From positions 21,401 to 85,400 of the forward strand of contig CACZLA010000003.1 in assembly GCA_902781895.1 (NCBI GenBank): DNA of 64,000 nucleotides. The letters are read 5' to 3'. Source of the DNA: an uncultured Lachnospiraceae bacterium. Its GTDB lineage: Bacteria; Bacillota; Clostridia; Lachnospirales; Lachnospiraceae. Below are positions 26,850-63,770 of this stretch, in pieces (the stretch's first letter is position 1; each line of letters starts with the position of its first letter). The notes below the pieces were generated by a model that was not told where the DNA came from, did not search any database, and saw nothing but the letters and a program-made list of their open reading frames with translations. Position numbers and translations under genes: made by a program.

Positions 26850-26857
26850 GTGGATAG

Positions 26858-27671: not shown

Positions 27672-27896
27672 ATGAGTCTTTTTAAAAGTAAGAAACAGAT
27701 GAAAATTGATTATGATAAGACCGAGAAGCAGCCGGCAGTAAAAAGCAGTATATGTACCGGCGAAATGGTGGCGGGGTTTATTGATTTAAAAACACAGAAG
27801 TTTCATGATTATATGCTAATCAGAAATGATGCTGAACTGGAATTGTTCTGTATGAGCTGTGGCATAGATACCTCTGAATTAAAACGTATAGTGTGA
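27672..27896 (+). CDS. Small protein of unknown function, 74 residues
   Basis: The frame begins MSLFKSKKQMKIDYDKTEKQ and contains SSICTGEMVAGFIDLKTQKF, then MLIRNDAELELFCMSCGIDT. It looks like a compact folded domain with a basic N-terminus, three cysteines and no membrane segment. I recall similar short proteins in Clostridia but no established function. The ribosome site is weak (GGGTTGAT). It lies 78 bases before the NHLM-type export genes, separated by a TGACATAAGTGTTA palindrome, so linkage to export is uncertain. Confidence 0.6.
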   Translation: MSLFKSKKQMKIDYDKTEKQPAVKSSICTGEMVAGFIDLKTQKFHDYMLIRNDAELELFCMSCGIDTSELKRIV

Positions 27897-27936
27897 TTTG
27901 TTGAGTTGATGCATGCTGTATTGAAAAATAATTCCA

Positions 27937-27950
27937 TGACATAAGTGTTA
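27937..27950. promoter_or_regulatory. TGACATAAGTGTTA palindrome upstream of the export genes
   Basis: One mismatch from the perfect palindrome TGACATAAGTGTCA found at 45057 and, inverted, at 9772. It lies 25 bases before the start of the export operon. Confidence 0.4.
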
Positions 27951-27974
27951 AAGGATTAGCAAGAGGAAGTTGAT

Positions 27975-28406
27975 GTGGATAATAAAGATAAAAATAACAA
28001 TTCAATATTCAGGAAAAAAACTTTAGATAGTATTAGTTCTCCTGACCAGCTTACGAATTATCTTAAGGTTACAAATCCGGGGATATGGTTAGTATTTGCT
28101 GCGGTTATTGTTTTTCTGGTGGGACTTTTTGTATGGGCAAAGGTAGGAACTCTTGAGACAAAGGCTCCTGCAAGGATTGTTGTTGTTGATGATACGGCAC
28201 TTGTTTCCATAAACAGTACAAAGGAGTTGAAAGAAGGAATGCCCCTTCGTATAGCTTCTGAGGAATATATGATAGCATCTGTAAAGAAGGATGAATATGG
28301 AAGAACTCTGGGAATTGCCCAGGTTGATCTTCCTGACGGAAATTATGATGGAACAGTAGTGGTAGATAAGACACACCCTATAGATTTTCTGCTGGAAAGC
28401 AGGTGA
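27975..28406 (+). CDS. NHLM-type secretion protein, short membrane-fusion form
   Basis: A 143-residue protein with a GTG start 5 bases after AGAGGAAG. The N-terminus (IFRKKTLDSISSPDQLTNYL, then KVTNPGIWLVF) matches the start of NHLM bacteriocin-system secretion proteins, related to HlyD. One membrane helix lies at about 41-58 and a short extracytoplasmic beta-rich part follows. Full-length relatives have a long coiled-coil and lipoyl-like region; this copy stops after about 85 external residues, with no sign of frameshift. It begins a tight three-gene export unit with two ABC transporters (gaps of 6 and 14 bases). It probably forms part of the exporter or anchors its substrate (inference). 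Confidence 0.72.
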   Translation: MDNKDKNNNSIFRKKTLDSISSPDQLTNYLKVTNPGIWLVFAAVIVFLVGLFVWAKVGTLETKAPARIVVVDDTALVSINSTKELKEGMPLRIASEEYMIASVKKDEYGRTLGIAQVDLPDGNYDGTVVVDKTHPIDFLLESR

Positions 28407-28412
28407 CTTTAA

Positions 28413-30608
28413 GTGGCTGAGAAAAGTATCAAATCAAAAAAAGTTAAACCGACCTTAACAAAGGGCGCGGCTAAGGTTCCTGTTATTATGCAGCAGGAGG
28501 CTCTGGAGTGCGGTGCTGCTGCTCTTGCTATGGTTATGGCTTACTATGGTAAATGGGTTCCCCTTGAACAGGTCCGTGTTGACTGCGGTGTTTCAAGAGA
28601 TGGGTCCAAAGCCAAAAATATATATCTGGCAGCTGAGCATTACGGATTTAAAGTAGATGCATACAGCATGTCCCCTGAGGCCATCAAAAAAAGCGGAAAG
28701 TTTCCGTGTATCATTCACTGGAACATGAACCATTTTGTGGTGCTTGACGGGTTCAAGGGAAAACATGTTTATATCAATGATCCGGCCAGAGGATCTGTAA
28801 AAATAACATGGGAAGAGTTTGACAGAGCTTTTACGGGTGTCGCACTGATACCTGTTCCTACTGATGATTTCGTTCCGGACGGAAAACGCCGGAGCGTACT
28901 TTCCTTTGCAAAAAAACGTCTGATCGGAGCCGGGGCGGCTGTTGCATTTGTAATGCTTACTACGGCTATTTCATATCTTTTCGGTATTGTAAATTCCGTT
29001 AATACGAAGATATTTATGGACAGACTTCTGACAGGTATCAACCGTGAGTGGCTGTATCCCTTCATAGGTTTTATGATCGTGCTGGCAGTTGTCCAGCTTC
29101 TTGTTGCCTGGGCTCAGGCTATCTATTCTCTGAAGATCAGAGGAAAGATGGCTATAGTCGGAAATACCACTTATATGTGGAAGATTCTCAGAATGCCCAT
29201 GGAGTTCTTCTCTCAGCGTCTTGCAGGTGATATTCAGGCCAGAGCTGAAATGAATGCTTCCATAGCAACCACTCTGGTGAATACATTTGCGCCCCTTCTC
29301 CTTAATACCATAATGATGATCTTTTATCTGGTTCTGATGCTCCATCAGAGTGCTCTTCTGACCCTTATCGGACTAACTGCACTGATATTAAATATTATAG
29401 TGGTTAAGATCGTCACCAAGAAAAGAGTAAATATGATGCAGCTGATGCTTCGTGATTCCGGAAAGCTTGAAGCTACAACGGTCAGCGGGATCGATATGAT
29501 AGAGACCATTAAGGCCAGCGGAGCGGAAAATGGATTCTTCCGTAAATGGGCCGGTTATCAGGCATCTGTAAATACACAGAACGTTAAGCTGATAAAATCA
29601 AGTCAGATTATTGAGATACTTCCCACATTTATGAGTCAGCTTGCTAATTATGTTGTTTTAATTCTCGGTGTCTGGCTTGTAATGCAGGGCAAATTCAGTC
29701 TTGGTGCAGTAACTATGTTCCAGGGCTTTCTCGGTTCATTCATGTCTCCGGCCATGACCCTTGTGGGAGCGGGACAGACTATTCAGGAAATGCGTGCTCA
29801 GATGGAACGAGTAGAGGATGTAATGGACTATCCCGAAGATGTTAATGTTTCCCAGGACATCAGTTTTGAGGATACGGACTTTACAAAATTAAAGGGGAAT
29901 ATTGAAATAAAGAATCTTACATTTGGCTATTCCAGACTGGAAGAACCACTGCTTAAAGACTTTTCGCTGAAAATGAAAACCGGTGACAGGATAGCGCTGG
30001 TTGGAGCTTCAGGCTGTGGTAAGTCAACTATTTCCAAGCTTATATCGGGTCTGTATCAGCCATGGAGCGGAGAGATTCTGTTTGACGGAAAGGATAGAAG
30101 TGAGTATCCCCATGATGTAATGACTGCATCTCTTGCGGTTGTTGATCAGGATATTATTCTTTTTGAGGATACGATAGAGAAAAACATAAAGATGTGGGAT
30201 GATTCCATCATGGACTTTGAGATGATCCTTGCAGCAAGGGATGTCCATTTCCATGATGATATTATGAGCATGCCCGGTGGATATCAGTATAAACTGAACA
30301 GCGGAGGCAGAAATCTGTCCGGAGGTCAGAGACAGCGCCTGGAGATTGCGCGTATTCTCGCACAGGATCCGACAATCCTTATTCTGGATGAGGCAACCAG
30401 TGCTCTGGATGCAAAAACAGAATATGAGGTGGTGAATTCAATAAAGGATCGAGGCATCACATGTCTTGTTATCGCACATCGTCTGTCGACTGTGCGTGAC
30501 TGTGATGAGATAATAGTTCTCGATCATGGAAATGTAGTCGAACGTGGTACCCATGATGAGCTTATAAAGAAAAATGGGGCCTATGCCGAACTTGTATCAC
30601 AGGAGTAG
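28413..30608 (+). CDS. NHLM-type peptidase/ABC exporter with C39 domain
   Basis: A 731-residue protein. The N-terminal C39 cysteine peptidase keeps C33 (QQEALECGAAA), H107 (NMNHFVV) and D123 (INDPARG), which cleaves leader peptides after a double-glycine-type motif. Six membrane helices follow (about 165-450). The ATPase has GASGCGKST, NLSGGQRQRLEIARIL, ILILDEATSALD and AHRLST. It should cut and export a modified peptide. It starts with GTG after AGGTGA. The only peptide precursor recognised nearby is the SCIFF peptide, 3.3 kb upstream, with Gly-Gly before its core; the link is inference. The second ABC gene begins 14 bases downstream. Confidence 0.88.
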   Translation: MAEKSIKSKKVKPTLTKGAAKVPVIMQQEALECGAAALAMVMAYYGKWVPLEQVRVDCGVSRDGSKAKNIYLAAEHYGFKVDAYSMSPEAIKKSGKFPCIIHWNMNHFVVLDGFKGKHVYINDPARGSVKITWEEFDRAFTGVALIPVPTDDFVPDGKRRSVLSFAKKRLIGAGAAVAFVMLTTAISYLFGIVNSVNTKIFMDRLLTGINREWLYPFIGFMIVLAVVQLLVAWAQAIYSLKIRGKMAIVGNTTYMWKILRMPMEFFSQRLAGDIQARAEMNASIATTLVNTFAPLLLNTIMMIFYLVLMLHQSALLTLIGLTALILNIIVVKIVTKKRVNMMQLMLRDSGKLEATTVSGIDMIETIKASGAENGFFRKWAGYQASVNTQNVKLIKSSQIIEILPTFMSQLANYVVLILGVWLVMQGKFSLGAVTMFQGFLGSFMSPAMTLVGAGQTIQEMRAQMERVEDVMDYPEDVNVSQDISFEDTDFTKLKGNIEIKNLTFGYSRLEEPLLKDFSLKMKTGDRIALVGASGCGKSTISKLISGLYQPWSGEILFDGKDRSEYPHDVMTASLAVVDQDIILFEDTIEKNIKMWDDSIMDFEMILAARDVHFHDDIMSMPGGYQYKLNSGGRNLSGGQRQRLEIARILAQDPTILILDEATSALDAKTEYEVVNSIKDRGITCLVIAHRLSTVRDCDEIIVLDHGNVVERGTHDELIKKNGAYAELVSQE

Positions 30609-30622
30609 AAGGGAGTGGACTG

Positions 30623-32812
30623 ATGAGCTTATATGACGATCAGATCAAAGAGCGTAAAAAAGCTGACAGGCAGCTCCTGGAGGACTCGCTTGTTAAGGTT
30701 GCGGGAGTGGTCCTTGGAAAAGGAAGCGCCCGGCGCTTGGATGATCAGAGAATTATCACACAGAATGCCATAGATGAGATACTTAAGTACTATCATTACA
30801 AACCGATAAAGGTATCGGAAGATATAGAGGGAATAGAGGCTCAGCTGAATTATGTCATGAAGTTCTATGGTATCATGAATCGTGAGATCGAGCTGAGTGA
30901 TAAGTGGTATAAGGATTCCTATGGACCCATATTTGCCTATACCAGGGACGAGGAGCTTCCCGTGGCTCTTATTCCCGGAAGGACGGGTGGATATTACTAT
31001 AAGGATCCCAAGACAAATAATATGACAAAACTGAATAAAAATAATGCAGATATGTTTATGAGAAATGCATATTGCTTTTACAGGCCCCTTCCTCAAAAAA
31101 AGCTGGGAATAAAGGATCTTTTTGTATATTTGCATAGATGTATAAACGCATATGATATAGCATTGATAATCATATCAGGTGTTGCTCTGGCTGTTATCGG
31201 TCTTCTGATAACAAGGCTGACAAAAGCCCTGACAGGATCTGTACTTAACAGTGGAAGGACCGAGGCTCTTATCGGGCTTGCCATCTGTATGGTCTGTATA
31301 ACGGCATCAAGCAAGCTTATAGAATGTGTTAAGACACTGCTTACAAACAGGCTTACCATAAAAACCTCCCTCGGTGTACAGTCATCAATGATGATGAGGA
31401 TTCTTACACTTCCTGCCGGTTTTTTCAGGAAGTACAGTGCCGGAGAGTTAAAGAGCAGATCCATGTCGGTGAACCAGCTGTGTGATCTGCTGATGAATAT
31501 AGTTCTGTCGACGGGACTTACCTCCATCACATCACTCATATATATTTTTCAGATTACGAGGTTTGCAAAGCAACTTGCCATACCGGCTCTGCTCATATCC
31601 CTGACCACTGTGATAATATCATTTATCACAACCATTACCATGCAGCGATTAAGTAAAAAGCAGATGGAAATAAGTGCAAAGGAATCCGGAATGAGCTATC
31701 AGATGATAACCGGTGTATCCAAGATAAAGCTGTCAGGTGCCGAAACCAGATTTTTTGCAAAATGGCTTGATATATATTCGGAGGAAGCAGCCCTTGCGTA
31801 TAATCCTCCGCTTCTGATAAAGCTGAATACTGTTATTACCACGGCAATCACTCTTTTTTCAAATATAATTATTTATTATATTGCGGTGAAAAGCCATATA
31901 GATCAGTCATCATATTTTGCATTTGCTTCTGCTTATGGAATGGTGTCCGGCGCATTTTTGGCACTGACATCCACAGCTCTTTCGGCAGCTCAGATAAAGC
32001 CCATCCTTGAAATGGCCGAACCATTTCTTAATGCCGTTCCGGAAACATCGGAGGGAAGAGAAGTTATAACCCGGATTTCCGGAGGAGTGGAGATGGATCA
32101 TGTTTCATTCAGATATTCTGATGATACTCCATATATACTAAATGATATGTCGCTTAAGATCAGACCCGGAGAGTATGTGGCAATAGTAGGAAAAACCGGC
32201 TGCGGAAAATCAACACTGATGAGACTGCTCCTGGGATTTGAGACAGCCGAAAAAGGAAATATCTACTATGACAGAAAAAGTATTAATAGTATAGATCTGC
32301 CGACTCTCAGAAGTCATATAGGAACGGTAATGCAGGATTCGGGACTGTTCCAGGGAGATATATATTCAAATATAGTTATCTCTGCCCCTGAACTTTCACT
32401 TGATGATGCATGGGAGGCTGCCGAGATAGCAGGTATAGCCGATGATATCAGAGCTATGCCCATGGGAATGCATACAGTTATTTCAGAAGGTCAGGGTGGC
32501 ATATCCGGAGGACAGCGTCAAAGACTTATGATCGCCCGGGCAGTGGCACCGAAGCCAAAGCTTATTATGTTTGATGAAGCGACCTCCGCACTTGATAACA
32601 AGACACAAAAGCAGGTCAGCGACGCTCTGGACCGTATGAAGTGTACACGAATAGTGATAGCACACAGATTATCTACCATCCGTCACTGTGATCGTATACT
32701 GGTACTTGACGGTGGAAATATCATTGAAGACGGTACCTATGAAGAGCTGATCGAACTTAACGGTCGGTTTGCCGAGCTTGTTGCAAGACAACGTCTTGAT
32801 ACTGAAGAGTAA
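30623..32812 (+). CDS. NHLM-type ABC exporter, second subunit
   Basis: A 729-residue permease-ATPase of the second NHLM transporter type, which lacks the C39 peptidase. An N-terminal soluble region (1-165) precedes a six-helix membrane domain (about 170-450). The ATPase has GKTGCGKSTLMRLL, GISGGQRQRLMIARAV, LIMFDEATSALDN and AHRLST, so it is intact. In known NHLM clusters this protein pairs with the C39 transporter and the secretion protein. The order of genes here is the same. AGGGAGTGG lies upstream of the ATG. Confidence 0.85.
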   Translation: MSLYDDQIKERKKADRQLLEDSLVKVAGVVLGKGSARRLDDQRIITQNAIDEILKYYHYKPIKVSEDIEGIEAQLNYVMKFYGIMNREIELSDKWYKDSYGPIFAYTRDEELPVALIPGRTGGYYYKDPKTNNMTKLNKNNADMFMRNAYCFYRPLPQKKLGIKDLFVYLHRCINAYDIALIIISGVALAVIGLLITRLTKALTGSVLNSGRTEALIGLAICMVCITASSKLIECVKTLLTNRLTIKTSLGVQSSMMMRILTLPAGFFRKYSAGELKSRSMSVNQLCDLLMNIVLSTGLTSITSLIYIFQITRFAKQLAIPALLISLTTVIISFITTITMQRLSKKQMEISAKESGMSYQMITGVSKIKLSGAETRFFAKWLDIYSEEAALAYNPPLLIKLNTVITTAITLFSNIIIYYIAVKSHIDQSSYFAFASAYGMVSGAFLALTSTALSAAQIKPILEMAEPFLNAVPETSEGREVITRISGGVEMDHVSFRYSDDTPYILNDMSLKIRPGEYVAIVGKTGCGKSTLMRLLLGFETAEKGNIYYDRKSINSIDLPTLRSHIGTVMQDSGLFQGDIYSNIVISAPELSLDDAWEAAEIAGIADDIRAMPMGMHTVISEGQGGISGGQRQRLMIARAVAPKPKLIMFDEATSALDNKTQKQVSDALDRMKCTRIVIAHRLSTIRHCDRILVLDGGNIIEDGTYEELIELNGRFAELVARQRLDTEE

Positions 32813-52759: not shown

Positions 52760-52788
52760 TTGACACATATTAAAAAAAAAGGTATAAT
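52760..52788 (+). promoter_or_regulatory. Consensus promoter flanked by an inverted repeat
   Basis: TTGACA (52760-52765), 17 bases, TATAAT (52783-52788): full consensus. GACACATA (52762-52769) and TATGTGTC (52793-52800) are perfectly complementary and bracket the spacer and -10, so a dimeric repressor could cover the promoter. Confidence 0.85.
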
Positions 52789-52833: not shown

Positions 52834-53898
52834 ATGAAATTCATTCACATAGCAGATGTGCATCTCTTTGCCACTCCTGATGCGGAGTTTGAGTGGGGAG
52901 AGAAGAGAACAAAAGAAATAGAAGAAACCTTTGAGGTTATTATAGATGACTGTAATAAAAAGGAGATAGATCTGCTCATCATAGCAGGAAATCTGTTTGA
53001 CAGATCTCCCTCTGTAGAGGATCTGATATTTGTGGACGACAAGCTGATGCGTCTTGAGAAAACAAGGACAGTCATGCTTTCGGGAAATGATGACTATATC
53101 GTTCCCGGTTCCGATAGTGCAGCATATAAGTTCAGATCCCGTACCGTGGTTCTTCCTCCGGATAAAACAACAAATGCATATCTTCGTGGAATCAATACCT
53201 GTGTTACAGGCTACAGCTACGGCAAGCCGGAATATACAGAGCACATTCTCGAAGAGATAGATCCCGGAAGACAGGATGCCATAAATATCCTGGTGGGATG
53301 CGGTGGTGACAAAAAACATATGCCTTTTAAGAAGGAAAAGCTGGCAGCAAAGGGCTTTGATTATGTGGCAATGGGGTATTTCAGAAAACCTGTCCATATC
53401 CTTAAGAACAGGATGGCATATGCAGGTTCGCCTGAACCTTTGGGACCGAAGGAAACAGGTCGTCATGGATATGTTCTCGGTGAGATAAATGATGAAGGAA
53501 CAAGTATAGAGTGGTGTCCTATAGCCAGAAGAAACTATGTGGATATAAGTATTACCATGACACCGGATCTTACAGCCAGACAGGTTGTGGACAGACTTGA
53601 TGAAAGAATGATGAAGCTTGGAAATGAGAACATTTACAAGATCATTTTCAGAGGCTTTTCAAACGGAAATATGAATTTTGATCTTACAAGGATCCATGAA
53701 AGATATAATGTTTACGAGATACTCAATATGACTATTTCGAAGGAAGATGAAAAAACGCTTCGTGTTGAAAATGCAACCAACATGATGGGCAGTTTCATTA
53801 AGGAAGTAAATGACAGCTACACACTTAGTGATGGCGTAAGAAGCAAGGCTTTAAGATATGGAATGGAAGCCTTGATAATGGCAGGAGAAAATGAGTAA
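52834..53898 (+). CDS. SbcD/MRE11-like metallophosphoesterase with altered active site
   Basis: A 354-residue protein whose order of motifs matches SbcD/YhaO-type DNA exonucleases, but most metal ligands are changed. D8 and H10 of ADVH are kept. The second motif reads GNLFD (N53 where the family has GDLFD). The third reads GNDD (D86 for the His of GNHD). The fourth has C156 in VGCGGD where homologs have His, and the fifth reads GYFRKP (Y182, R184) in place of GHIHKP. Nuclease activity is therefore unlikely. The stop is followed at once by the ATG of a membrane-anchored ATPase-like partner. AGGTGA precedes the ATG. It may be a structural or sensing paralog of the repair complex (inference). 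Confidence 0.78.
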   Translation: MKFIHIADVHLFATPDAEFEWGEKRTKEIEETFEVIIDDCNKKEIDLLIIAGNLFDRSPSVEDLIFVDDKLMRLEKTRTVMLSGNDDYIVPGSDSAAYKFRSRTVVLPPDKTTNAYLRGINTCVTGYSYGKPEYTEHILEEIDPGRQDAINILVGCGGDKKHMPFKKEKLAAKGFDYVAMGYFRKPVHILKNRMAYAGSPEPLGPKETGRHGYVLGEINDEGTSIEWCPIARRNYVDISITMTPDLTARQVVDRLDERMMKLGNENIYKIIFRGFSNGNMNFDLTRIHERYNVYEILNMTISKEDEKTLRVENATNMMGSFIKEVNDSYTLSDGVRSKALRYGMEALIMAGENE

Positions 53899-55638
53899 AT
53901 GTATCTTACAAAGCTTTTGATAAGAGATTTCGGAAAATTTCATAATAAAAGCATGGATCTTGAAAAGGGTGTAAATATCGTCTATGGAAAGGAAGGAGCC
54001 GGAAAGTCTACAGTCAGAGATTTTCTTGTGGGACTTATTTACGGTATCCCCAGAAGAGAGGGTATTACTAAGGTCAGATCCAATTATGATCTTAGAAAAC
54101 CAACTGACAGAACCGGATATTCCGGTACTGCTTATGTCAGATGTGATGATAAGGCATATCTTGTGGACAGAACATTTCTTGCCGGAGCAAAAAAAGCTTC
54201 GGTTCTTGATGTACAGTCGGGAAGAGATCTGAAGCTGGAGAATTCCGATACACTCTGCGGTACTCTTTGTGAAACAGATAAGAATACCTATCTTGATACT
54301 AAATGCATTATAGAGGAGCATGCATCTGACAGTAAGGAGCATCTTCAGGAATATCTGACAAATCTTACACTTACAGGTACTGCAAATATCAATAAGGCAA
54401 AGGCTATAGAGTATCTTGAGAATGAGAAGAAAAATCATATTCCAAAGCCCCTTATCAGAAGACTGGATGAGCTGGATGAGAAGATAGCCCAGTATGATAC
54501 GGTGGATGATGAGATAGAGGCTGTTGAGAATGAGATAAAGACTCTGAATGAAGAGTTTGTTATAGAAGCAGAGCGTCGTAAGCGTGTAGCGAGACGTCTT
54601 GTTGAAAATGAAGACGGTACTGTTACATATGAAACCGATCAGACTATTGATGAGAAGATAGACCGTCTGACGGAAAGAGAAATCAGTATAGGTGCCAGTG
54701 AGAAAAAACTCCAGCAGGAGGAACAGGCAGAAAAGGAAAGAAAGAAGCAGGAGAAGAAGGATATTAAGTTTACGGACAGGATTCCGGTAATACTTGCAAC
54801 CGGTATGTTTGTCATCCTTGTTGTCGCTGCGATAGTATATATACTTGATTTTGAACAGGTTATAAGAAATCTTTTCATAATCTTTACAGCACTTTTTGTT
54901 GTTATCACAACCCTTGACGGATTTAAAGCAAAGGGTTACTTTGATTCTTCCTCCGAAAAATCGGAAACACCGGATGAAGAAGAGTTTAAACGTGTTCTTG
55001 AAGAGCTGAAGGAAGAAGCCGAAGAACAGGAAGAGATAGAATTTGATATGACCTTTGCCAAGGAATATCAGGAGAAAAAGGCTGCTCTTAAGGAGAAGGA
55101 AAATGCACTTCTTGAGAGAAGAAACGAGAGAAACAAGCTCCGTCATGAGTTTGATACAGTATTTAAAAAGAAGAGTGAGCTTGAAGATGAGATAACTGCC
55201 ATAGATTTTGCAATCAGTAAGATAAACAAGCTTTCTGAAGGCTACAGAAAGGATGCGTTTGAGCATCTTCTCGGAAATGTATCCAGATATCTCAGCAGTA
55301 TATCCGATAATCAGTTCAGCGAGCTGATGTTTGACAGTCAGGGAAGACTTATTGTAAAGACCTCCTACGGTCTTGTTCCCGTGGACAATCTGACAGATGT
55401 AGATGCAGCAAAGGCATATCTTGCTATAAGACTTAGTATTGCAAAATATATGTCAAAGGAAAATATGCCCCTTATCATCGATGGAACTTCAATGCTTGAA
55501 AGCGCATCTGAGGTAAAAGCACTTGCTGATTGTCTGAAGGATATGCAGGAGGAGCAGATAATTATTCTTACGGATGACTGGGGAATGGATTCTCTGTTCA
55601 AGTCAAAAGGAATCAATACAAATCTTATCCAGCTGTAA
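53899..55638 (+). CDS. YhaN/SbcC-like membrane-anchored ATPase homolog, degenerate
   Basis: A 579-residue partner of the SbcD-like protein, starting the base after its stop. The N-terminus has a sound Walker A (GKEGAGKST, 30-38) after FGKFHNK. Coiled-coil arms (185-290 and 355-435) flank two membrane helices (about 295-317 and 321-339), as in YhaN. The C-terminal half-site is altered: NLTDVDAAKAYLAIRL (498-511) lacks the LSxGT signature, IIDGTSML (526-533) lacks the second acidic Walker B residue, and LTDDWG (557-562) lacks the expected His/Cys-type switch. It is also shorter than usual SbcC/YhaN proteins. ATP binding may persist, while hydrolysis looks doubtful. Confidence 0.75.
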   Translation: MYLTKLLIRDFGKFHNKSMDLEKGVNIVYGKEGAGKSTVRDFLVGLIYGIPRREGITKVRSNYDLRKPTDRTGYSGTAYVRCDDKAYLVDRTFLAGAKKASVLDVQSGRDLKLENSDTLCGTLCETDKNTYLDTKCIIEEHASDSKEHLQEYLTNLTLTGTANINKAKAIEYLENEKKNHIPKPLIRRLDELDEKIAQYDTVDDEIEAVENEIKTLNEEFVIEAERRKRVARRLVENEDGTVTYETDQTIDEKIDRLTEREISIGASEKKLQQEEQAEKERKKQEKKDIKFTDRIPVILATGMFVILVVAAIVYILDFEQVIRNLFIIFTALFVVITTLDGFKAKGYFDSSSEKSETPDEEEFKRVLEELKEEAEEQEEIEFDMTFAKEYQEKKAALKEKENALLERRNERNKLRHEFDTVFKKKSELEDEITAIDFAISKINKLSEGYRKDAFEHLLGNVSRYLSSISDNQFSELMFDSQGRLIVKTSYGLVPVDNLTDVDAAKAYLAIRLSIAKYMSKENMPLIIDGTSMLESASEVKALADCLKDMQEEQIIILTDDWGMDSLFKSKGINTNLIQL

Positions 55639-55681: not shown

Positions 55682-56575
55682 ATGAGAATAGTAGATTTTC
55701 ACACGCATACATTTCCTGATAAGATAGCAGCTCCTGCCATTAAGGCTCTTCAGGAGTCCAGCGGAAGTATAGCTCATATAGATGGAACAAACGGAGCTTT
55801 GGCGGCGTCCATGAAAAAGGCCGGAGTAAATGTATCGGTAGTTCTTCCCGTGGTTACAAATCCCGCGAAGGCTTCTCATATGAATCATTTTGCCGCAAAG
55901 GTGAATGAGTCTTTTGAAAAGACGGGTATCTTTTCCATAGGTGGAGTGCATCCTCTTTGTTCAGATCTGAGAGCAGTTCTGAAAGAAGCAAAAGAGCTGG
56001 GTCTTAAGGGTGTGAAGCTTCATCCTGATTATTACAGGATTGCCTTTAATGATATAAGGATAAAGCGAATAATTGATATAGCCTCTGAAATGGGGCTTTT
56101 TGTTATAACTCACGCAGGTATGGATATAGGTCTTTATCCACCGGTCAGCTGTACCATAGATTCCATAATGGAGGTAGTTCGGGACGTAAACCCCGAGTGT
56201 CTTATCCTTGCTCATATGGGCGGATGGATGAACTGGGAGGAAGTAACCGAGAGACTTGCTCCGTTTGTATGCGACTATACACCGGCCGGCAGTAAGGGTT
56301 TATCGGAAGGAAAAGGTATTTACCTGGATACTGCATTTTCAATAGGTGAGATAGAATGGATAAATCCCGAAGATCATAAGGATTATCATCAGATGTCTGA
56401 CGAGCAGTTCAGGATAATGGTTAAAGCCTTCGGTGCCGAAAGGATACTGTTTGCAACGGACAGCCCATGGGCAGACCAGACAGATTATGTAAACCGTATT
56501 AATGATATGGGGCTTGGCCGTGATGAACTGGAAATGATCTTTTATAAGAATGCAGAGAAAATACTTAAAATATAA
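55682..56575 (+). CDS. Amidohydrolase-family metal-dependent hydrolase (TIM barrel)
   Basis: A 297-residue amidohydrolase-2 type enzyme: DFHTHTFPDKIA (metal His pair), GVKLHPDYYRI, VITHAGMDIG, LILAHMGGWMNWEEV and the final metal Asp in LFATDSPWADQ. All metal-binding positions of the family are present. Relatives include ACMSD-like decarboxylases and various hydrolases; the substrate is unknown. The ribosome site is weak (GGAACC). It begins 43 bases after the YhaN-like gene and may belong to the same transcript. Confidence 0.8.
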   Translation: MRIVDFHTHTFPDKIAAPAIKALQESSGSIAHIDGTNGALAASMKKAGVNVSVVLPVVTNPAKASHMNHFAAKVNESFEKTGIFSIGGVHPLCSDLRAVLKEAKELGLKGVKLHPDYYRIAFNDIRIKRIIDIASEMGLFVITHAGMDIGLYPPVSCTIDSIMEVVRDVNPECLILAHMGGWMNWEEVTERLAPFVCDYTPAGSKGLSEGKGIYLDTAFSIGEIEWINPEDHKDYHQMSDEQFRIMVKAFGAERILFATDSPWADQTDYVNRINDMGLGRDELEMIFYKNAEKILKI

Positions 56576-56604
56576 TATGGATAGCTTGGAAGGTGGAAAA
56601 TAGT

Positions 56605-56787
56605 ATGTCAGGAAGTGCATCGTGCGACTATTGTTGCTATTTTACATATGATGATGAAACAGAAGAATGGGTATGTGATGTGAATATGGATGAGGATGAT
56701 TATGGGAGACTTATGTCAACTAATTTTAAGGAGTGTCCATATTTTAAAGACGGGGATGAGTATAAGGTAGTAAGACACCAGATGTAA
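56605..56787 (+). CDS. DUF6472 small cysteine protein
   Basis: A 60-residue protein: CDYCCYFTYDDETEEWVCDV, then DEDDYGRLMSTNFKECPYF and GDEYKVVRHQM. This matches the DUF6472 family as I know it from Lachnospiraceae, whose conserved cysteines suggest a metal site. Function unknown. The ATG at 56605 lies 9 bases after AGGTGG; a GTG four codons earlier overlaps that site. It stands between the amidohydrolase and the PAS-CPBP gene, with short gaps on both sides. Confidence 0.75.
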   Translation: MSGSASCDYCCYFTYDDETEEWVCDVNMDEDDYGRLMSTNFKECPYFKDGDEYKVVRHQM

Positions 56788-56817
56788 TAGTTTTCATTTG
56801 GGAAAGGGATAATCTAT

Positions 56818-57870
56818 ATGGGGAATGTTGATACCAGTTTTGCTAATCGAGTTCTTCGGGATATGAATACAGGTGTCCTTGTATTAAATAAACAGGGAAC
56901 TATTATATATACAAATAAGCCTGCCCGCAAGATGCTGGAAATCGGGAAAAATGAAACCTTGGATTATTTTTCATTATTTATGGATATTATCAAGGATGAT
57001 TCCGAAGCATCTGCTTATAATGATGGTTTTAATGAATATATATTTCAGTCGATTTATTCCAAGAGTGAAACTCATTTAGGCAGAGTAAAATTTATGTCAC
57101 CATCCGGTGTGAAGCGTAGCTTTGAAATGACTACTTCTTATTTGGAGAATGATGAAAATGAGGATGAATTTCAGATAGTCATCACCCTTTGTGATGTTTC
57201 TGCAGAAGAGGAGCTGAGGGTAAAATACAGAGATTCCTCCACTATCTTTTCCGTTTTCCTGATAGGAATATGTCTGTGGCTGACTATTTATACTCTCTGG
57301 GACGACCTCGGTGAACCCTTTAGTAAAAAGTATATAACCCACGGGGTTGAAGTGCTGGGAATAATCCTGCTCTTCGTAATCCTGAAATTTTCCAGTCTGA
57401 AGTGGAAGGATATAGGTCTTTTTTCAGGTAATCCCAAGCGGATAGCTGTTTCGTCAATCATCATGTGTGGAGTGGCGTTTACGATACTTCTCACCATAAA
57501 GCTGATATTCAGGAATAATCCCAGTATTATCAGGCAGGGACCGTTTTTTAATTTTTCGGTAATGGATTTTAACAGGTGGTTTTATATAGTTACCGCATTG
57601 GTTCAGGAGTTCCTGGCAAGAGGCTGTGTTCAGTCGAATCTGAAGAGAATTTTGGATTGTAAACATCCGTCGGCTGTTTCCATATATATGGCTTCACTCG
57701 TGTTTGCCGTACTTCATATACATCTTGGAATAGGATTTATGGTAGGGGCAGCGCTTCTGGGTGGTGTACTCGGTATAGTATATGACAAGCAGGAAACAAT
57801 ATGGGGAGTATGGATCATTCACTGGTTCACCGGAACCATGGCAGCGCTGATGGGCGTATTCTATAAATGA
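56818..57870 (+). CDS. PAS-CPBP fusion membrane protein
   Basis: A 350-residue fusion. A cytoplasmic PAS-like domain (about 8-130: LRDMNTGVLVLNKQGTIIYT, then MTTSYLEND) is followed by about eight membrane helices (142-350) with the CPBP (CAAX protease/bacteriocin-processing) core. The core motifs are QEFLARG (263-269; the family has EExxxR, so the first Glu is Gln), FAVLH with H300, and H335 in IHWFTG (the usual Asn four residues later is Gly). Two of the usual catalytic positions are therefore changed, and protease activity is doubtful. A PAS domain on this family suggests signal-responsive control. GGAAAGGG precedes the ATG. Confidence 0.75.
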   Translation: MGNVDTSFANRVLRDMNTGVLVLNKQGTIIYTNKPARKMLEIGKNETLDYFSLFMDIIKDDSEASAYNDGFNEYIFQSIYSKSETHLGRVKFMSPSGVKRSFEMTTSYLENDENEDEFQIVITLCDVSAEEELRVKYRDSSTIFSVFLIGICLWLTIYTLWDDLGEPFSKKYITHGVEVLGIILLFVILKFSSLKWKDIGLFSGNPKRIAVSSIIMCGVAFTILLTIKLIFRNNPSIIRQGPFFNFSVMDFNRWFYIVTALVQEFLARGCVQSNLKRILDCKHPSAVSIYMASLVFAVLHIHLGIGFMVGAALLGGVLGIVYDKQETIWGVWIIHWFTGTMAALMGVFYK

Positions 57871-57904
57871 TGTAATTTTAACTATACAGATATGGAGGAA
57901 AAAA

Positions 57905-58645
57905 ATGTCTGAGTTATTAAATATCAAAGATTTACATGTAAGTGTAAATGAAACAGAGATACTTCATGGTATAAACCTTGAGGTTAAGCCGGGAGAAACA
58001 CATGTTATCATGGGACCCAACGGAGCGGGAAAGTCCACACTGGGTTATGCTATCATGGGAAGCCCCAGCTACGAGATCGGTAGTGGAACCATCATGTTCA
58101 AGGGTGAGGATATCACCGGTGAGGAAACCGCTGACAGAGCAAAAGCAGGTATCTTCCTTTCATTTCAGAATCCTATAGAGGTTCCGGGAATATCTCTTTC
58201 CAACTTTATAAGAAATGCGGTTGATACAAAGACAGGAACCAGAGCAAGACTTTGGGATTTCCGTAAATCTCTGGAAAAGCAGATGGCACTTCTCTCTATG
58301 GATAAATCTTATGCAGACAGAGATCTGAATGTTGGTTTTTCCGGTGGAGAAAAGAAAAAGGCTGAGATACTTCAGATGCTTATGATGAAGCCTGATCTGG
58401 CTATCCTTGATGAGACAGATTCCGGACTTGATGTTGATGCGGTAAGAACCGTATCAGACGGAGTGAAAGCATTTCACGAGAGCGGGGATGGTGCACTGAT
58501 AATCATTACCCACAGCACCCGTATACTTGAAGCTCTTACGGTGGACTATACACATATTCTTGTGGACGGAAAGATCGTTGAGACAGGAGATGCATCACTG
58601 GTTGATGAGATCAATGCAAACGGATTTGAGAGATTTGTTAATTAA
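57905..58645 (+). CDS. sufC: Fe-S assembly ATPase SufC
   Basis: A 246-residue ABC-type ATPase of the SUF iron-sulfur assembly complex. Seen: GPNGAGKSTLGYAIMG (Walker A), FLSFQNPIEVPG (Q-loop), GFSGGEKKKAEILQM (signature), AILDETDSGLD (Walker B) and ITHSTRILE (H-loop). It binds SufB and SufD and powers scaffold rearrangement. GGAGG precedes the ATG. It opens the operon sufC-sufB-sufD-membrane protein-sufS-sufU, the usual Firmicute order apart from the extra gene. Confidence 0.96.
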   Translation: MSELLNIKDLHVSVNETEILHGINLEVKPGETHVIMGPNGAGKSTLGYAIMGSPSYEIGSGTIMFKGEDITGEETADRAKAGIFLSFQNPIEVPGISLSNFIRNAVDTKTGTRARLWDFRKSLEKQMALLSMDKSYADRDLNVGFSGGEKKKAEILQMLMMKPDLAILDETDSGLDVDAVRTVSDGVKAFHESGDGALIIITHSTRILEALTVDYTHILVDGKIVETGDASLVDEINANGFERFVN

Positions 58646-58697
58646 ATATCTATGCAGATTTACGAAGTAGCTGAATAGAAAAAAGGAATAATAAAAC

Positions 58698-60113
58698 ATG
58701 GCAGATAAAGAAAAAACATACGTTGATGACGTGGACAGAAGCCTGTATGATTTCAGGAATGTGGATGAGGATGTTTACAAGGTCGAGGAAGGACTTACTC
58801 CCGAGATCGTTAAACAGATATCCAAAGAGAAAAACGATCCCCAGTGGATGGCTGAGTTTCGTCTGAAGGCTCTTGAAGTCTATAACAACATGGAAATGAA
58901 GGAATGGGGACCTCCGATAGACGGTCTTCATATGGATAATATAGTTACATATATAAAGCCGAAGGATAATAAAATGAGCGCCGACTGGGACGAGGTTCCG
59001 GAGGAGATAAAGGATACCTTTGAAAGACTGGGTATTCCACAGGCTGAGAGAGAGTCACTGGCCGGAGTCGGAGCACAGTACGATTCTGAGCTGGTATATC
59101 ATAATGTCAGAGAAGAGGTGGCTGCTCAGGGAGTTATCTATACCGATCTTGAGTCGGCAATGCATGGTGAGTACGGAGATATGATACATGAGCATTTTAT
59201 GAAGCTCATTACTCCCCAGGATCATAAGTTTGCAGCTCTTCATGGTGCTGTTTGGTCAGGTGGATCATTCGTATACGTTCCGCCGGGAGTAAAGGTTGAG
59301 ATACCCCTTCAGTCTTATTTCAGACTGAATGCTCCGGGAGCAGGACAGTTCGAGCATACTCTTATCATAGTTGATGAAGGTGCAGACCTTCACTTTATTG
59401 AAGGATGTTCGGCACCGAAGTATAACGTGGCAAACCTTCATGCCGGAGCAGTTGAGCTTTTTGTAGGAAAGAATGCAAGACTCAGATACTCTACTATAGA
59501 GAACTGGTCAAAAAATATGTACAATCTCAACACAAAGCGTGCCACTGTAGAAGAAGGCGGAAAGATGGAGTGGGTATCAGGATCCTTTGGATCGCATACC
59601 TCATACCTGTATCCCATGACTATTCTTAAAGGTGATGACTCAAAGGTTGAGTTTACGGGAATAACATTTGCAGGAGAGGGACAGGATCTGGATACAGGTC
59701 TCAAGGTGGTTCATACCGGACAGAGAACCGTATCTACAGTGAATACAAAGTCCATCTCAAAGAGTGGTGGAATAAGCACCTTCAGAAGCGCGGTTGTTAT
59801 CGGACCGGAGGCCAAAGGGGCCAAGTCAGCAGTTGACTGTTCATCCCTTATGCTGGATGATGTTTCACGTTCGGATACAGTACCTGCAATGGATGTCAGA
59901 TGTGATGATGTTGATATCGGACATGAAGCAAAGATCGGACGTATATCCGACGAGGCGATATTCTATCTTATGAGCCGTGGTATTCCGGAGGAGGAAGCCC
60001 GCGCCATGATAGTAAGCGGATTCGCGGATAACGTATCCAAGGAGCTTCCGCTGGAGTACGCAGTAGAAATGAATAACTTAATACGACTTGAAATGAAGGG
60101 TTCTATTGGATAA
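58698..60113 (+). CDS. sufB: Fe-S assembly scaffold SufB
   Basis: A 471-residue scaffold on which the SUF system builds Fe-S clusters. The beta-helix core shows KFAALHGAVWSGGSFVYVPP, VEIPLQSYFRLN, and LHFIEGCSAPKYN; the C-terminal part has VDCSSLMLDDVSRSDTVPAM and GHEAKIGRISDEAIFYLMSR, standard for SufB. It forms the SufBC2D complex with its neighbours. AAAAGGAATAA is a modest ribosome site. Confidence 0.95.
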   Translation: MADKEKTYVDDVDRSLYDFRNVDEDVYKVEEGLTPEIVKQISKEKNDPQWMAEFRLKALEVYNNMEMKEWGPPIDGLHMDNIVTYIKPKDNKMSADWDEVPEEIKDTFERLGIPQAERESLAGVGAQYDSELVYHNVREEVAAQGVIYTDLESAMHGEYGDMIHEHFMKLITPQDHKFAALHGAVWSGGSFVYVPPGVKVEIPLQSYFRLNAPGAGQFEHTLIIVDEGADLHFIEGCSAPKYNVANLHAGAVELFVGKNARLRYSTIENWSKNMYNLNTKRATVEEGGKMEWVSGSFGSHTSYLYPMTILKGDDSKVEFTGITFAGEGQDLDTGLKVVHTGQRTVSTVNTKSISKSGGISTFRSAVVIGPEAKGAKSAVDCSSLMLDDVSRSDTVPAMDVRCDDVDIGHEAKIGRISDEAIFYLMSRGIPEEEARAMIVSGFADNVSKELPLEYAVEMNNLIRLEMKGSIG

Positions 60114-60153
60114 ATCATTAACAGGAGACGGACATAGTAAATAAGGAAATATT

Positions 60154-61221
60154 ATGAGCGAAATGATAATTAACAAACTGCCGGTCCCGACATGGACATG
60201 GTTAAAGGTAAATGAAAAGAGTGTTAAGACTCCGGTGAAGGTTGTCAGAGCAGATGAGAGTATAGAGAACATGCCTGAGAATGTAAAGGTCGGAAAGGTT
60301 GATTTTACATCTATCTGCCTTGGAGATGTGGAGCTGGGAGCAGGAGAGGAATTCAGAAAGTTCTCCCATGCCGCAAAGACAGGCGGTGTTTCATATACTG
60401 TACCTGCAGGTATTAAGGTGGAAGACCCGATCCGCGTGACATATGATTTTAACAGCATGTCGTCAGATGAAACGGAAAGCGGAAGGCTTGCTCGTACATC
60501 AGTTGTACTCGGCGAGAATGCTGAGCTGACCCTGATCATCACTTTTAAAGGCAGGGTCGGATTCGCCGCAAATGATATCCGTATCAAGGCAGCAAAAACA
60601 GCAAAGCTGAATCTTGTGGAGATATTCCAGCTGGATGAGGGCTCAAGCTTTGTTGACAGCATCGGAGGAAAATATCAGGAGAAGGGTGGTCTGAATCTCA
60701 TTCAGATAAATAACGGCAAGGGAAATGTATGTCTCAGCTGCTGTGCAGATCTGGATGGTTACAAGAGTACTCTGAATATAGATACCGGATATCTTGTTAC
60801 AGGCAGTGACAAGATGGATATAAACTATGTTGCAAGACACAGAGGTGTTCTCACAGATTCAAAGATAAATGTAAGCGGAGTTCTGCGTGATCATGCAGAT
60901 AAAACCTTCCGCGGTACCATAGATTTCATCAGAGGCTGTAAGGAAGCCACCGGTGATGAAAGAGAGGACGTTCTTCTTATGGATGAGGGGGTTCATAATA
61001 ATACTGTTCCTCTTATCCTTTGTGCTGAGGAGGATGTTGAAGGTGCACATGGTGCTTCCATAGGAAAGATATCTGATGAGATACTTCTCTATTTCCAGAG
61101 CAGGGGAATACCTGAAGCAGATGTTACTGAGCTTATGGCTAAGTCAAGGATAGATGCCGTAGCAGGTCGTATACCTGATGAGGTTACACGTAAGCAGTTA
61201 TTGGGTGAAGATTGGGCATAG
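60154..61221 (+). CDS. sufD: Fe-S assembly protein SufD
   Basis: A 355-residue SufB paralog that completes the SufBC2D scaffold and aids iron acquisition. The N-terminal region is variable (LPVPTWTWLKVNEKSVKTP). The beta-helix and conserved end (GHR-like HRGVLTDSKINVSGVL, then HGASIGKISDEILLYFQSRG) identify the family. AAGGAAAT precedes the ATG. The next gene starts 7 bases after the stop. Confidence 0.9.
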   Translation: MSEMIINKLPVPTWTWLKVNEKSVKTPVKVVRADESIENMPENVKVGKVDFTSICLGDVELGAGEEFRKFSHAAKTGGVSYTVPAGIKVEDPIRVTYDFNSMSSDETESGRLARTSVVLGENAELTLIITFKGRVGFAANDIRIKAAKTAKLNLVEIFQLDEGSSFVDSIGGKYQEKGGLNLIQINNGKGNVCLSCCADLDGYKSTLNIDTGYLVTGSDKMDINYVARHRGVLTDSKINVSGVLRDHADKTFRGTIDFIRGCKEATGDEREDVLLMDEGVHNNTVPLILCAEEDVEGAHGASIGKISDEILLYFQSRGIPEADVTELMAKSRIDAVAGRIPDEVTRKQLLGEDWA

Positions 61222-61228
61222 TTGATTT

Positions 61229-61972
61229 ATGAGATTAAAAAGTGACGAAGAACAAAATAAGAGGCTGGAAGAAGAACCGGAGCAGATAGCCGATCCGAAT
61301 AAGTATAAAGGCTGTCTCGGAACAGGCACAGCCGATATGGATAAGATAGGACAACTTCCCACATATACAGCTCCGCCCGTTATGGAAAAAGAGGGGCTTA
61401 ATGTAAACAGCAATACCAGGAGAATCATTTTCAGAATTATCGGATTGATATTTCTGGTGATTATCGGATTTACTGCCTATAAGCTGACCGTATATCTGAC
61501 AGGTGATGGTGGAGAGGATATAACAGCCGATCTGGATAAAGATGAGGAAGAGCTGGCAGCGAAGTATGATATAACCTTTAAGGATAATGACAAAAGGGTG
61601 AAGGCTATACCGAATTATTCCACAGGGAAGATGACTGTCCGTTCAGGAAAGGATCTTCATCTCATATATATAAACGGAAAAAGAGTGGGAATAAATACTG
61701 ACTCCAGAGATTACAGATTTTTCGATGTTGGAATAAATCAGCCCGCCAGAGAAGCCATGAACAACATGAGTTATGAGTATGAAATGAGTATGATCATAGG
61801 GAATGATCTGATGGGCGGTTCTTCGGATTCATATTATTATTATAATACGAAAAAAAATGACTGCTTTGTGCTTACCGTAAATGGTAATTCAAACAGAATA
61901 GTAAACATGACCTATTTTACGGATTTCAAAAAAATGACCGAGCGACTTGTAATTGATGACGATGATGAATAA
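61229..61972 (+). CDS. Unrecognised membrane protein inside the suf operon
   Basis: A 247-residue protein with a charged N-terminus (RLKSDEEQNKRLEEEPEQIA), a single membrane helix at about 66-88 (FRIIGLIFLVIIGFTAYKL) and an extracytoplasmic domain of about 155 residues ending in an acidic tail (DDDDE). No cysteine-rich or iron-binding motif is seen, and I do not recognise a family. It starts 7 bases after sufD without a clear ribosome site, so translation is probably coupled to sufD. Its place between sufD and sufS suggests co-expression with Fe-S assembly, but not a known role in it. Confidence 0.7.
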   Translation: MRLKSDEEQNKRLEEEPEQIADPNKYKGCLGTGTADMDKIGQLPTYTAPPVMEKEGLNVNSNTRRIIFRIIGLIFLVIIGFTAYKLTVYLTGDGGEDITADLDKDEEELAAKYDITFKDNDKRVKAIPNYSTGKMTVRSGKDLHLIYINGKRVGINTDSRDYRFFDVGINQPAREAMNNMSYEYEMSMIIGNDLMGGSSDSYYYYNTKKNDCFVLTVNGNSNRIVNMTYFTDFKKMTERLVIDDDDE

Positions 61973-62002
61973 TAGATATTAGATAAATAATAGAGGAATA
62001 TT

Positions 62003-63241
62003 ATGTTATTAGATGTTCAAAAAATAAGAAAAGATTTTCCGTTCTTTGATAAAACGGATCTTGCATATCTCGATAATTCCGCTACTACCCAGAGACCCCG
62101 TCAGGTAGTAGAGGCGGTTGAAGAGTATCAGTATCATCATAATTCAAATCCCTTCCGTGGACTTTATGAATTATCCATAGATGCGACAGAGAGATATGAA
62201 GCTGCAAGATCAAAGGTTGCGGGATTCATAAATGCAAAGTCGGATAAAGAAATAATCTTCACAAGAAACGCTTCGGAAAGTCTGAACCTGGTTGCATACT
62301 CTTTATCGGAAATGCTGAATACGGAAGGAAAGCTTTCTGAGGGAGATGAGATAATCACTACGGTGGTTGAGCATCACAGCAATATGCTTCCCTGGAGACT
62401 GGCGGCAAAGAGATATAATGCAACAGTGAAATATCTTGAATGCGAAGAGGATGGAAGCTTTTCTCTGGATAGGTTTAAAGAGCTTCTGACTGACAGAACC
62501 AGGATAGTTGCAATGACGGCCATGTCTAACATTTTCGGTCGCGTTATAGATATAAAAGCATTTGCAGCAGCAGCCCATGAGGTGGGAGCTTATTTCGTGG
62601 CTGACGGCTCCCAGAGTGTTCCTCACAGTAAAACGGATGTACAGGAGCTGGATGTGGATTTCCTGGCATTCTCCGGACACAAGATGCTTTCTCCTATGGG
62701 AATCGGTGTTCTCTACGGAAAAAAGGAGCTGCTTGAAAAGATGCCTCCGTTCCTTTCCGGTGGAGAGATGATAGAATATGTTACATTTGATGATATTACA
62801 TATGCAGAGCTTCCCCATAAGTTTGAGGCCGGAACTGTTAATGCCGGTGGAGCGGTAGGACTTGCGGCAGCGATAGATTACATAGAGTCGATAGGTTTAC
62901 ATAATATTGAAGAGAGGGAGCTTGAATTAACAAAACTCGCATTGGAAGGAATGAAGAAAATACCTCATGTTATTGTGCTGGGTTCTGACAAAGCAGAGGA
63001 GCATCATGGTATACTCACCTTCAAGATCGAGGGAGTTCATCCCCACGATATAGCTGCGATAATAGCTGATGCAAATGTTGCAGTTCGTGCCGGACATCAC
63101 TGCGCTGAACCGCTGCATCATTTCATAGGTATCCCATCTACTACAAGAGCCAGTCTCATGTTCTACAATACAGAGGATGAAGTAAACAGACTCCTTGATG
63201 TGATGGCAAAGATACGTCCGATGATGGGTTATCCGGACTGA
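62003..63241 (+). CDS. sufS: Cysteine desulfurase SufS
   Basis: A 412-residue PLP enzyme that takes sulfur from cysteine for Fe-S assembly. YLDNSATTQRP opens the fold; the PLP lysine is K227 (FSGHKMLSPMG), and the persulfide cysteine is C367 in AGHHCAEPL. GVHPHDIAAI and ASLMFYNTEDEV are typical of the SufS (group II) branch. Sulfur would be passed to SufU, encoded next. AGAGGAAT precedes the ATG. Confidence 0.95.
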   Translation: MLLDVQKIRKDFPFFDKTDLAYLDNSATTQRPRQVVEAVEEYQYHHNSNPFRGLYELSIDATERYEAARSKVAGFINAKSDKEIIFTRNASESLNLVAYSLSEMLNTEGKLSEGDEIITTVVEHHSNMLPWRLAAKRYNATVKYLECEEDGSFSLDRFKELLTDRTRIVAMTAMSNIFGRVIDIKAFAAAAHEVGAYFVADGSQSVPHSKTDVQELDVDFLAFSGHKMLSPMGIGVLYGKKELLEKMPPFLSGGEMIEYVTFDDITYAELPHKFEAGTVNAGGAVGLAAAIDYIESIGLHNIEERELELTKLALEGMKKIPHVIVLGSDKAEEHHGILTFKIEGVHPHDIAAIIADANVAVRAGHHCAEPLHHFIGIPSTTRASLMFYNTEDEVNRLLDVMAKIRPMMGYPD

Positions 63242-63314
63242 ATATTAGCCGCCAGATAAAAATGAACGGTAAAATTCGAATATAAAAAAGAGCAGATATA
63301 AAACGAGGAAGATT

Positions 63315-63770
63315 ATGGAAAACAGAACTTTTTACAATGAGATACTTACGGAGCATAATATCCGTCCCATGCATAAGACGAAAATGATCAATCCGCAGAA
63401 GTCCCTTCGTGGAGTGAATCCGTCCTGTGGAGATGATATAACACTTCAGTTAAATGTATCCGAAGACGGTATCATAGAGGACGGCGCCTTTTTCGGAGAC
63501 GGCTGTGCCATATCCCAGGCCAGCACCGATATGATGCTTGAGCTGATCATAGGAAAAACAGTAGAGGAATCTCTGGCCCTTAAGGATACATTTCTCAAAA
63601 TGATAAAGGATAAGGTCACTGATGAGGAGCTTGAAATGCTTGAGGAAGCAGGCTCTCTTCAGGATATATCACATATGCCATCCAGAGTTAAATGTGCTGT
63701 ACTGGGATGGCGTACGCTTGAGGAAATTCTGAAGGACGGTGAGAAGTCAGAATCAGTTACTACTGAATAA
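63315..63770 (+). CDS. sufU: Sulfur-transfer protein SufU
   Basis: A 151-residue zinc protein that accepts sulfur from SufS. The three conserved cysteines are in NPSCGDDITL, FGDGCAISQASTDMM and RVKCAVLGWRTLEE, with the zinc-binding Asp directly after the first. It is the expected end of the Firmicute suf operon. GAGGAAG precedes the ATG. No terminator was recognised before the next gene. Confidence 0.94.
   Translation: MENRTFYNEILTEHNIRPMHKTKMINPQKSLRGVNPSCGDDITLQLNVSEDGIIEDGAFFGDGCAISQASTDMMLELIIGKTVEESLALKDTFLKMIKDKVTDEELEMLEEAGSLQDISHMPSRVKCAVLGWRTLEEILKDGEKSESVTTE

Follow-up and report, generated by a model that had tools for sequence, protein, structure and literature searches.

The locus considered here raises the question of what an Mre11-Rad50-like gene pair is for once the residues of both of its catalytic centres have been replaced. 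The window, i.e., the whole stretch of DNA that was analysed, comprises 64,000 nucleotides of an uncultured Lachnospiraceae bacterium of the rumen or gut (GenBank assembly GCA_902781895.1, contig CACZLA010000003.1, positions 21,401 to 85,400 of the forward strand), and the pair consists of D, which resembles the nuclease subunits Mre11, SbcD, and YhaO, and C, which resembles the ATPase subunits Rad50, SbcC, and YhaN. An earlier note, made from the letters of this DNA alone, had suggested that the pair may be repurposed as a non-catalytic, membrane-tethered complex. Our analysis supports that idea and extends it, as far as sequence can carry it, with at least two losses and with older, clade-specific stalk motifs. 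With a probability that we put at about 0.65, D and C form a membrane-anchored Mre11-Rad50-like complex that gained a stalk-based, non-catalytic role and lost both catalytic centres at least two times.

The pair and its altered catalytic centres

C starts directly at the end of D, on the same strand and with a gap of 0, and at 22 loci of the window genus the D-then-C spacing is -1 to 2 bases in all but one (24 bases in L049). D matches the Pfam family Metallophos (calcineurin-like phosphoesterase) and C matches AAA_23 and AAA_27, all above cut-off; against the SbcD model TIGR00619, D scores 45.1 bits, below the cut-off of 77.65. The AlphaFold model of D, predicted as a single chain, has a mean predicted local distance difference test score (pLDDT) of 91.9 and the metallophosphoesterase fold with a capping domain. 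It was matched by Foldseek to Mre11 and SbcD structures with a probability of 1.00 (best E 4.2e-13), and the D family profile retrieved Mre11 chains in the PDB (best E 3.8e-27). The single-chain model of C (mean pLDDT 79.3, with stretches below 50 chiefly in the stalk) has an ATP-binding cassette (ABC) head half at each terminus, with a coiled coil between the two, and its best match among Rad50-type heads is 5dny (E 2.9e-12). The folds of D and of the C head are thus predicted confidently, and the description of the locus as an adjoining SbcCD/YhaNO-like pair holds.

Alignment to Mre11 places the motifs D-x-H, GDxF, GNHD, H-G-G, and GHIH at D residues 8/10, 53, 85/86, 156, and 182/184, where we take each residue to have the role that it has in Mre11. 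At these eight positions the window reads D, H, N, N, D, C, Y, R against the canonical D, H, D, N, H, H, H, H, so that five of the eight are changed and the canonical Mre11/SbcD set is absent; nowhere in our alignments did the family residues fall at other positions with the canonical ligands present. Losses that the earlier note had read at Asn53, Cys156, and Tyr182/Arg184 stand, and its reading of the GNDD motif as a lost metal ligand does not, the Asn being kept and the catalytic His lost. Cys156, although correctly read in the window, is a recent change, since His stands at this site in the window's nearest relatives (L031 and L105) and in 22 of the 47 aligned rows with altered motifs (hereafter degenerate rows). 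Asp8 is present in every degenerate row and His10 in 25 of them, and Asn is the commonest letter at site 53 (35/47). Site 85 is occupied by eleven different letters and site 86 by twelve, with at least 23 and at least 19 changes, respectively, on the tree described below. Two degenerate D proteins come close to the canonical set, L221 keeping seven and L215 six of the eight positions.

The other catalytic centre is altered in a similar manner. Walker A is kept in 33 of the 47 degenerate rows, including the window, and its pattern is unmatched in 14; its state changes at least six times on the tree. Of the Rad50/SbcC set, window C lacks the signature, the second Walker B acid, the Q-loop, the D-loop, and the switch; it has IIDG at Walker B and LTDD in place of the canonical FTC(H/Q) stretch (the labels signature, Q-loop, D-loop, and switch are those that we presume to apply at these positions). 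All of this agrees with what had been noted for the ATPase partner, i.e., an intact Walker A with a changed LSxGT signature, second Walker B acid, and switch. With Walker A intact, ATP may still be bound by window C, and without the signature and switch its hydrolysis is unlikely.

The coiled coil of C is interrupted by two hydrophobic segments, which start at residues 297 and 321 and coincide with AlphaFold helices at 294-315 and 320-344. The membrane helices proposed for C from the window alone recur as two such segments in 47/47 degenerate rows; the other 161 C frames, incomplete ones included, have two segments in 134 cases, one in 19, none in 7, and three in 1. C thereby has the YhaN-type layout of an AAA_27 head with membrane helices within the coiled coil, where we assume, following the earlier note, that YhaN itself has such helices. 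Two motifs of the stalk, m1 and m2, flank this predicted membrane hairpin, one on each side in the sequence. The coordinates of these features are collected in Table 1, and they bear out the description of two open, tightly coupled frames behind a consensus promoter. Exact TTGACA-(16-18)-TATAAT sites occur four times in the window (at 9771, 18728, 44157, and 52760) against an expectation of 0.04, and hexamers resembling the promoter, of varying quality, also lie 5' of D in relatives.

Table 1. Features of the D-C pair in the window, and head-less fusions read at four sister-genus loci (positions in the respective locus)
Feature	Position	Strand	Remark
Promoter-like site TTGACA-17-TATAAT, 5' of D	52760-52788	+	sigma-70-type; 12/12 consensus match
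D	52834-53898	+	Mre11/SbcD/YhaO-like metallophosphoesterase-fold protein, 354 amino acids (aa); active site dismantled
Motif I, D-V-H, D residues 8-10	52855-52863	+	kept in window
Asn replacing Asp of GDxF, D residue 53	52990-52992	+	
Asn-Asp replacing Asn-His of GNHD, D residues 85-86	53086-53091	+	Asn kept, His lost
Cys replacing His, D residue 156	53299-53301	+	
Tyr-Phe-Arg replacing His-Ile-His of GHIH, D residues 182-184	53377-53385	+	
C	53899-55638	+	Rad50/SbcC/YhaN-like, 579 aa; ABC head halves at both ends, coiled coil, predicted membrane hairpin
Walker A, C residues 30-38	53986-54012	+	intact in window
Stalk motif m1, C residues 206-241	54514-54621	+	clade-specific; basic patch then EDG
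Predicted membrane hairpin inside coiled coil, C residues ~297-339	54787-54915	+	hydrophobicity, AlphaFold helices
Stalk motif m2, C residues 355-396	54961-55086	+	clade-specific
ABC signature site, C residues 497-504	55387-55410	+	replaced: LSxGT to LTDVD
Walker B and following residues, C residues 524-535	55468-55503	+	second acid and F..YD element lost
Head-less fusions (535-606 aa)	L226:925-2721; L227:5747-7354; L228:5505-7325; L229:6561-8372		D-type domain with coiled coil and hairpin

Joint losses, stalk motifs, and selection

The earlier note had suggested looking for an orthologous clade with like substitutions, and such a clade was found. A tree was built from 59 D+C pairs with the catalytic columns removed, namely 53 clade rows, drawn from 76 clade C frames (those left out include duplicates and incomplete frames), and 6 outgroup rows. 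The degenerate rows, a class defined by motif state after the pattern had been seen, form two groups. Lineage A consists of 14 rows from the sister genus and its near kin. Lineage B has 33 rows, the window among them; two (L205 and L206) are from other genera, and the remaining 31 are from the window genus or named near kin. Canonical rows, i.e., those with the full catalytic set, lie beside both, L204 being sister to B and L210-L214 standing at the base of A. The state of D and the signature of C are concordant in 59/59 rows (with the signature of L118, which reads GA for GT, scored as present), and each changes twice on the tree.

Forcing the 47 degenerate rows into a single origin costs 123 log-likelihood units on the quick tree, with a p of 0.000186 in the approximately unbiased (AU) test. 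A more careful method, applied to 52 rows after seven long rows were dropped, returned the same topology, with the degenerate branches supported at 100/100 for B and 94/97 for A. Long-branch attraction would unite the degenerate rows, and a bias of this kind therefore works against the two-group result. The tree thus indicates that the nuclease and ATPase signatures were lost together at least two independent times; a test of independent pairs has only 2 pairs to draw on, which puts significance out of its reach.

The stalk motifs appear to be older than these losses. Profiles of m1 and m2 trained on lineage B alone find 14/14 rows of A, those trained on A find 33/33 rows of B, and both sets find 6/6 canonical clade members, with at most 1 hit among 128 C frames from outside the clade (incomplete frames and duplicates included). 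Strict text patterns find m1 in 75 and m2 in 67 of the 76 clade frames, and neither in the 128 outside. Since both motifs are already present in canonical clade members, they predate the catalytic losses on this tree, which is the order to be expected if a stalk role in a bifunctional ancestor had made the enzymes dispensable, a course of events like that proposed for the fungal Dis3L2/Ssd1 pseudonucleases (PMC8097288).

The pair has been kept under strong purifying selection in both genes, as the ratio of nonsynonymous to synonymous substitution rates (dN/dS, or omega) in relatives indicates. By a counting method, applied to 25 pairs of degenerate relatives and rough because many dS values exceed 1.5, omega is 0.010-0.136 for D (n=25) and 0.014-0.169 for C (21 finite values, with dS saturated in the other four); for four canonical pairs the finite D values are 0.077 and 0.082. 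The D sites whose conservation reaches 95% or more across 139 canonical rows comprise 8 catalytic and 37 other positions; in the 47 degenerate rows the former have a mean retention of 35% and the latter of 89% (Mann-Whitney p 0.0003), and 28 of the 37 are retained in at least 90% of these rows. The corresponding values at C sites at least 85% conserved in canonical rows are 36% for catalytic sites and 63% for others (p 0.008). With the catalytic sites lost and the other conserved sites kept, the active site is specifically relaxed and the fold held. A homologous fold, lost catalytic residues, and purifying selection, by which a pseudoenzyme is recognised in sequence, are all found here.

Within C, constraint is distributed differently in the two states. 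For pairs at 45-75% identity, which share rows and are not independent, canonical family members (n=526) are 65% and 64% identical in the two head halves and 42% in the stalk region, as against 56%, 40%, and 58% in lineage B (n=269) and 57%, 44%, and 62% in lineage A (n=9). In the 60-75% band, the C-terminal head stands at 0.87 in canonical clade members (11 pairs) and at 0.59 in both lineage B (54 pairs) and lineage A (3 pairs), and the stalk arms at 0.37/0.51, 0.67/0.73, and 0.57/0.77, respectively. The comparison indicates that in both degenerate lineages conservation rose in the coiled-coil arms and fell in the C-terminal head. A rise of constraint in the membrane hairpin was also considered and was rejected, there being no clear change (canonical 0.67, A 0.77, B 0.66).

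The pair is widespread in the window genus. In a draw of 25 own-genus genomes a D orthologue (E <=5e-97) was found in 23, and among 61 genus genomes C (E <=3.9e-75) was found in 58 and D (E <=7.9e-17) in 56; in two of the five genomes in which D was missed (G463 and G465), C lies at the very start of a contig. All eight D sites could be read in 40 genus genomes (22, the window included, and 18, from two alignments), and neither the canonical set nor Asp53 occurs in any of them. An assembly artefact was rejected because the same changes recur in independent assemblies, including the one-contig genomes G002, G005, and G489; the changes are genus-wide and track the tree, which makes them more than chance. 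The canonical state is common outside: 93 of 132 D rows aligned by likeness to the query are canonical, and in a family control of 40 further pairs among the strongest matches listed (hence not a random sample) D is canonical in 38 and Walker A with a G[T/A] signature is present in 39/39 C frames. Canonical-residue members exist in the clade itself (G104, G477, and G488). Judged by its named loci, the clade belongs to Lachnospiraceae that are mostly uncultured, and some of these come from deer gut samples. In the sister genus a D orthologue (E <=7.1e-113) is present in 35 of 37 genomes, and of the 17 read among these 35, five are canonical (L210-L214) and twelve degenerate (L207 and L215-L225).

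Two side observations concern variants of the pair. Six loci outside the clade (L087, L120, L157, L175, L266, and L278) have one to four changes in D together with Walker A and a signature in C, and they are possibly early stages of catalytic loss. The sister genus also has a head-less fusion, in which a D-type domain is followed by coiled coil, membrane hairpin, and coiled coil, with no ATPase head; judged by frame length, it occurs in 19/37 genomes. All four fusions that were read are without the catalytic His (site 86) and three of them without Asn85, with the other six positions kept, and the likeness of the fusion stalk to the C stalk is weak (hhalign probability 72). By their domain order, the fusions are a single-chain, head-less version of the D-C layout. 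Frames of about 604 aa in the window genus (G012 and G458) were rejected as further cases, as they start differently and are without the D domain.

Possible role of the pair

The following course of events would account for these observations. D-C would have descended from an active, membrane-anchored nuclease-ATPase of Mre11-Rad50 type (YhaO/YhaN-like). In the ancestor of this Lachnospiraceae group, C would have carried the two stalk motifs and had a role that needed the stalk and the D cap and was independent of DNA cutting and ATP hydrolysis. Later, both catalytic centres would have been lost together in two or more descendant lineages, of which that of the window genus is one. Today the complex would be a membrane-tethered scaffold, in which the hairpin anchors C, D acts as a pseudonuclease that caps the degenerate heads at the inner membrane face, and the stalk motifs lie in the cytosol, C docking a partner through its stalk. 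In its boldest form, the proposal is that the structural role came with a new stalk module and that the nuclease and the ATPase of the bifunctional ancestor were then shed in two or more lineages in parallel, so that what remains is a stalk-centred scaffold in the membrane with a pseudo-Mre11 as its cap; we hold the odds on that form to be even.

Several observations weigh against the scaffold interpretation. Nucleotide binding may persist, given the intact Walker A of the window and most degenerate rows, and some degenerate D proteins may still bind metal, Asp8 being invariant and L221 and L215 nearly complete. The branch of lineage A is supported at only 94/97, and a tree of D alone (78 rows), while it agrees, rejects a single origin weakly (p 0.0325). 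The strict m2 pattern is found in just 67/76 clade frames, the constraint comparison for lineage A rests on nine pairs that share rows, and the shift of constraint, as measured in these alignments, concerns the coiled coil and not the membrane hairpin. The pair is also dispensable, since in the D and C searches three genus genomes (G020, 95% complete; G024, 97%; and G466, 80%) had no pair or weak matches only.

These absences, 3 among 61 genomes, would also suit a pair on its way out, whose changes are drift, as would the freedom with which the former catalytic positions 85 and 86 vary. The idea of such relaxed decay, which had been set aside from the start, is hardly credible in view of the low omega of both genes, the retention of most non-catalytic conserved D sites, and the consensus promoter. 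No internal stop was seen in the listed genus C matches (E <=3.9e-75), and among the D matches of the 25-genome draw TAA occurs only in L017 and L018, at the very end. The invariant Asp8, the frequent Asn53, and the Walker A motif of most rows would fit a changed enzyme, in which other ligands or another metal act on a phosphoester and ATP binding still gates the reaction; there are reportedly pseudoenzymes whose catalytic residues have migrated (PMC10211241). Such an enzyme is nevertheless unlikely, as eleven and twelve letters occur at sites 85 and 86, some rows have lost Walker A and all 47 the signature, and conservation has departed from the C-terminal head.

Two further explanations start from other systems. 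D-C could regulate the genome's own SbcCD, as a heteromer or a decoy, and contig C7 of the window genome does encode a second SbcD, above the SbcD model cut-off, beside a neighbour of SbcC length (920 aa). The retention of D and C as an adjacent pair with its own stalk features speaks against this explanation, which we regard as decidedly improbable; the same genes mean that general SbcCD work need not be missing from this genome. A Lamassu-like anti-phage defence module is suggested by the match of C to the PADLOC model LmuB (E 9e-10) and by Lamassu chains among the Foldseek matches. Rad50 and SMC heads match C too, D has no PADLOC match, and C is present in 58/61 genus genomes, mostly adjoining suf genes, unlike defence genes, whose spread is usually patchy; a defence module is accordingly very unlikely. 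The scaffold interpretation has the stalk as its centre, and the two stalk motifs are the part that may carry the non-catalytic role.

Neighbouring genes and known systems

Positions 55682-63770 of the window, 3' of the pair, hold an amidohydrolase-family gene, a gene with PAS and Rce1-like (CAAX-protease) domains (56818-57870), and then suf genes, which we take from their sequences to be sufC, sufB, sufD, sufS, and a sufU-like gene. Of 42 genus loci, 36 have a same-strand sufC or sufB gene downstream of the pair; of the six others, L038 and L235 end at a contig edge, and L036, L037, L239, and L249 have other neighbours. In the available stretches from lineage A and from canonical clade members, no suf gene was seen downstream of the pair, and for this reason we treat the suf link as a lead and do not use it for function. 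In 38 of 93 other loci, a gene that we presume from sequence to be asparaginyl-tRNA-synthetase-like lies upstream of D. Apart from the pair, positions 25272-32812 of the window encode a radical SAM/SPASM protein followed by a pair of large ABC exporters, of which the first carries a C39 peptidase domain; the arrangement resembles a cluster for a peptide natural product.

Few DNA repair machines are as widespread as Mre11-Rad50, and the share of its work that needs catalysis is an old question. Nature seems to have run a separation-of-function experiment on a pair of this type at least two times, and with canonical clade members still extant (G104, G477, and G488) the non-catalytic role is directly testable. 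If the scaffold interpretation is true, a non-catalytic Mre11-Rad50 complex would be a stable, selected end state, with canonical sisters for comparison. Among the titles and abstracts of openly accessible papers we found nothing on the function of YhaN/YhaO, and among listings of such papers no report of this membrane Mre11-Rad50-like pair.

Compared with bacterial SbcCD and Mre11-Rad50, the window pair shares the Mre11 fold of D, the Rad50-type head halves of C, and the D-then-C adjacency, and it differs in its lost catalytic sets, its stalk with a predicted membrane hairpin, and its score below the TIGR00619 cut-off. With YhaO/YhaN and the short YhaN-like pair of Lachnospiraceae it shares the AAA_27 head of C, above cut-off; a pair of like size with canonical residues is widespread in this family, from which the window lineage differs by its dismantled catalytic residues and its two extra stalk motifs. 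A parallel in mode of loss is found in the fungal Dis3L2/Ssd1 pseudonucleases, for which PMC8097288 describes a repeated loss of the active site in independent lineages and proposes an older, non-nuclease function. Dis3L2/Ssd1 is a single ribonuclease protein, whereas in the bacterial pair the nuclease and its ABC ATPase partner appear to have lost their catalytic centres together.

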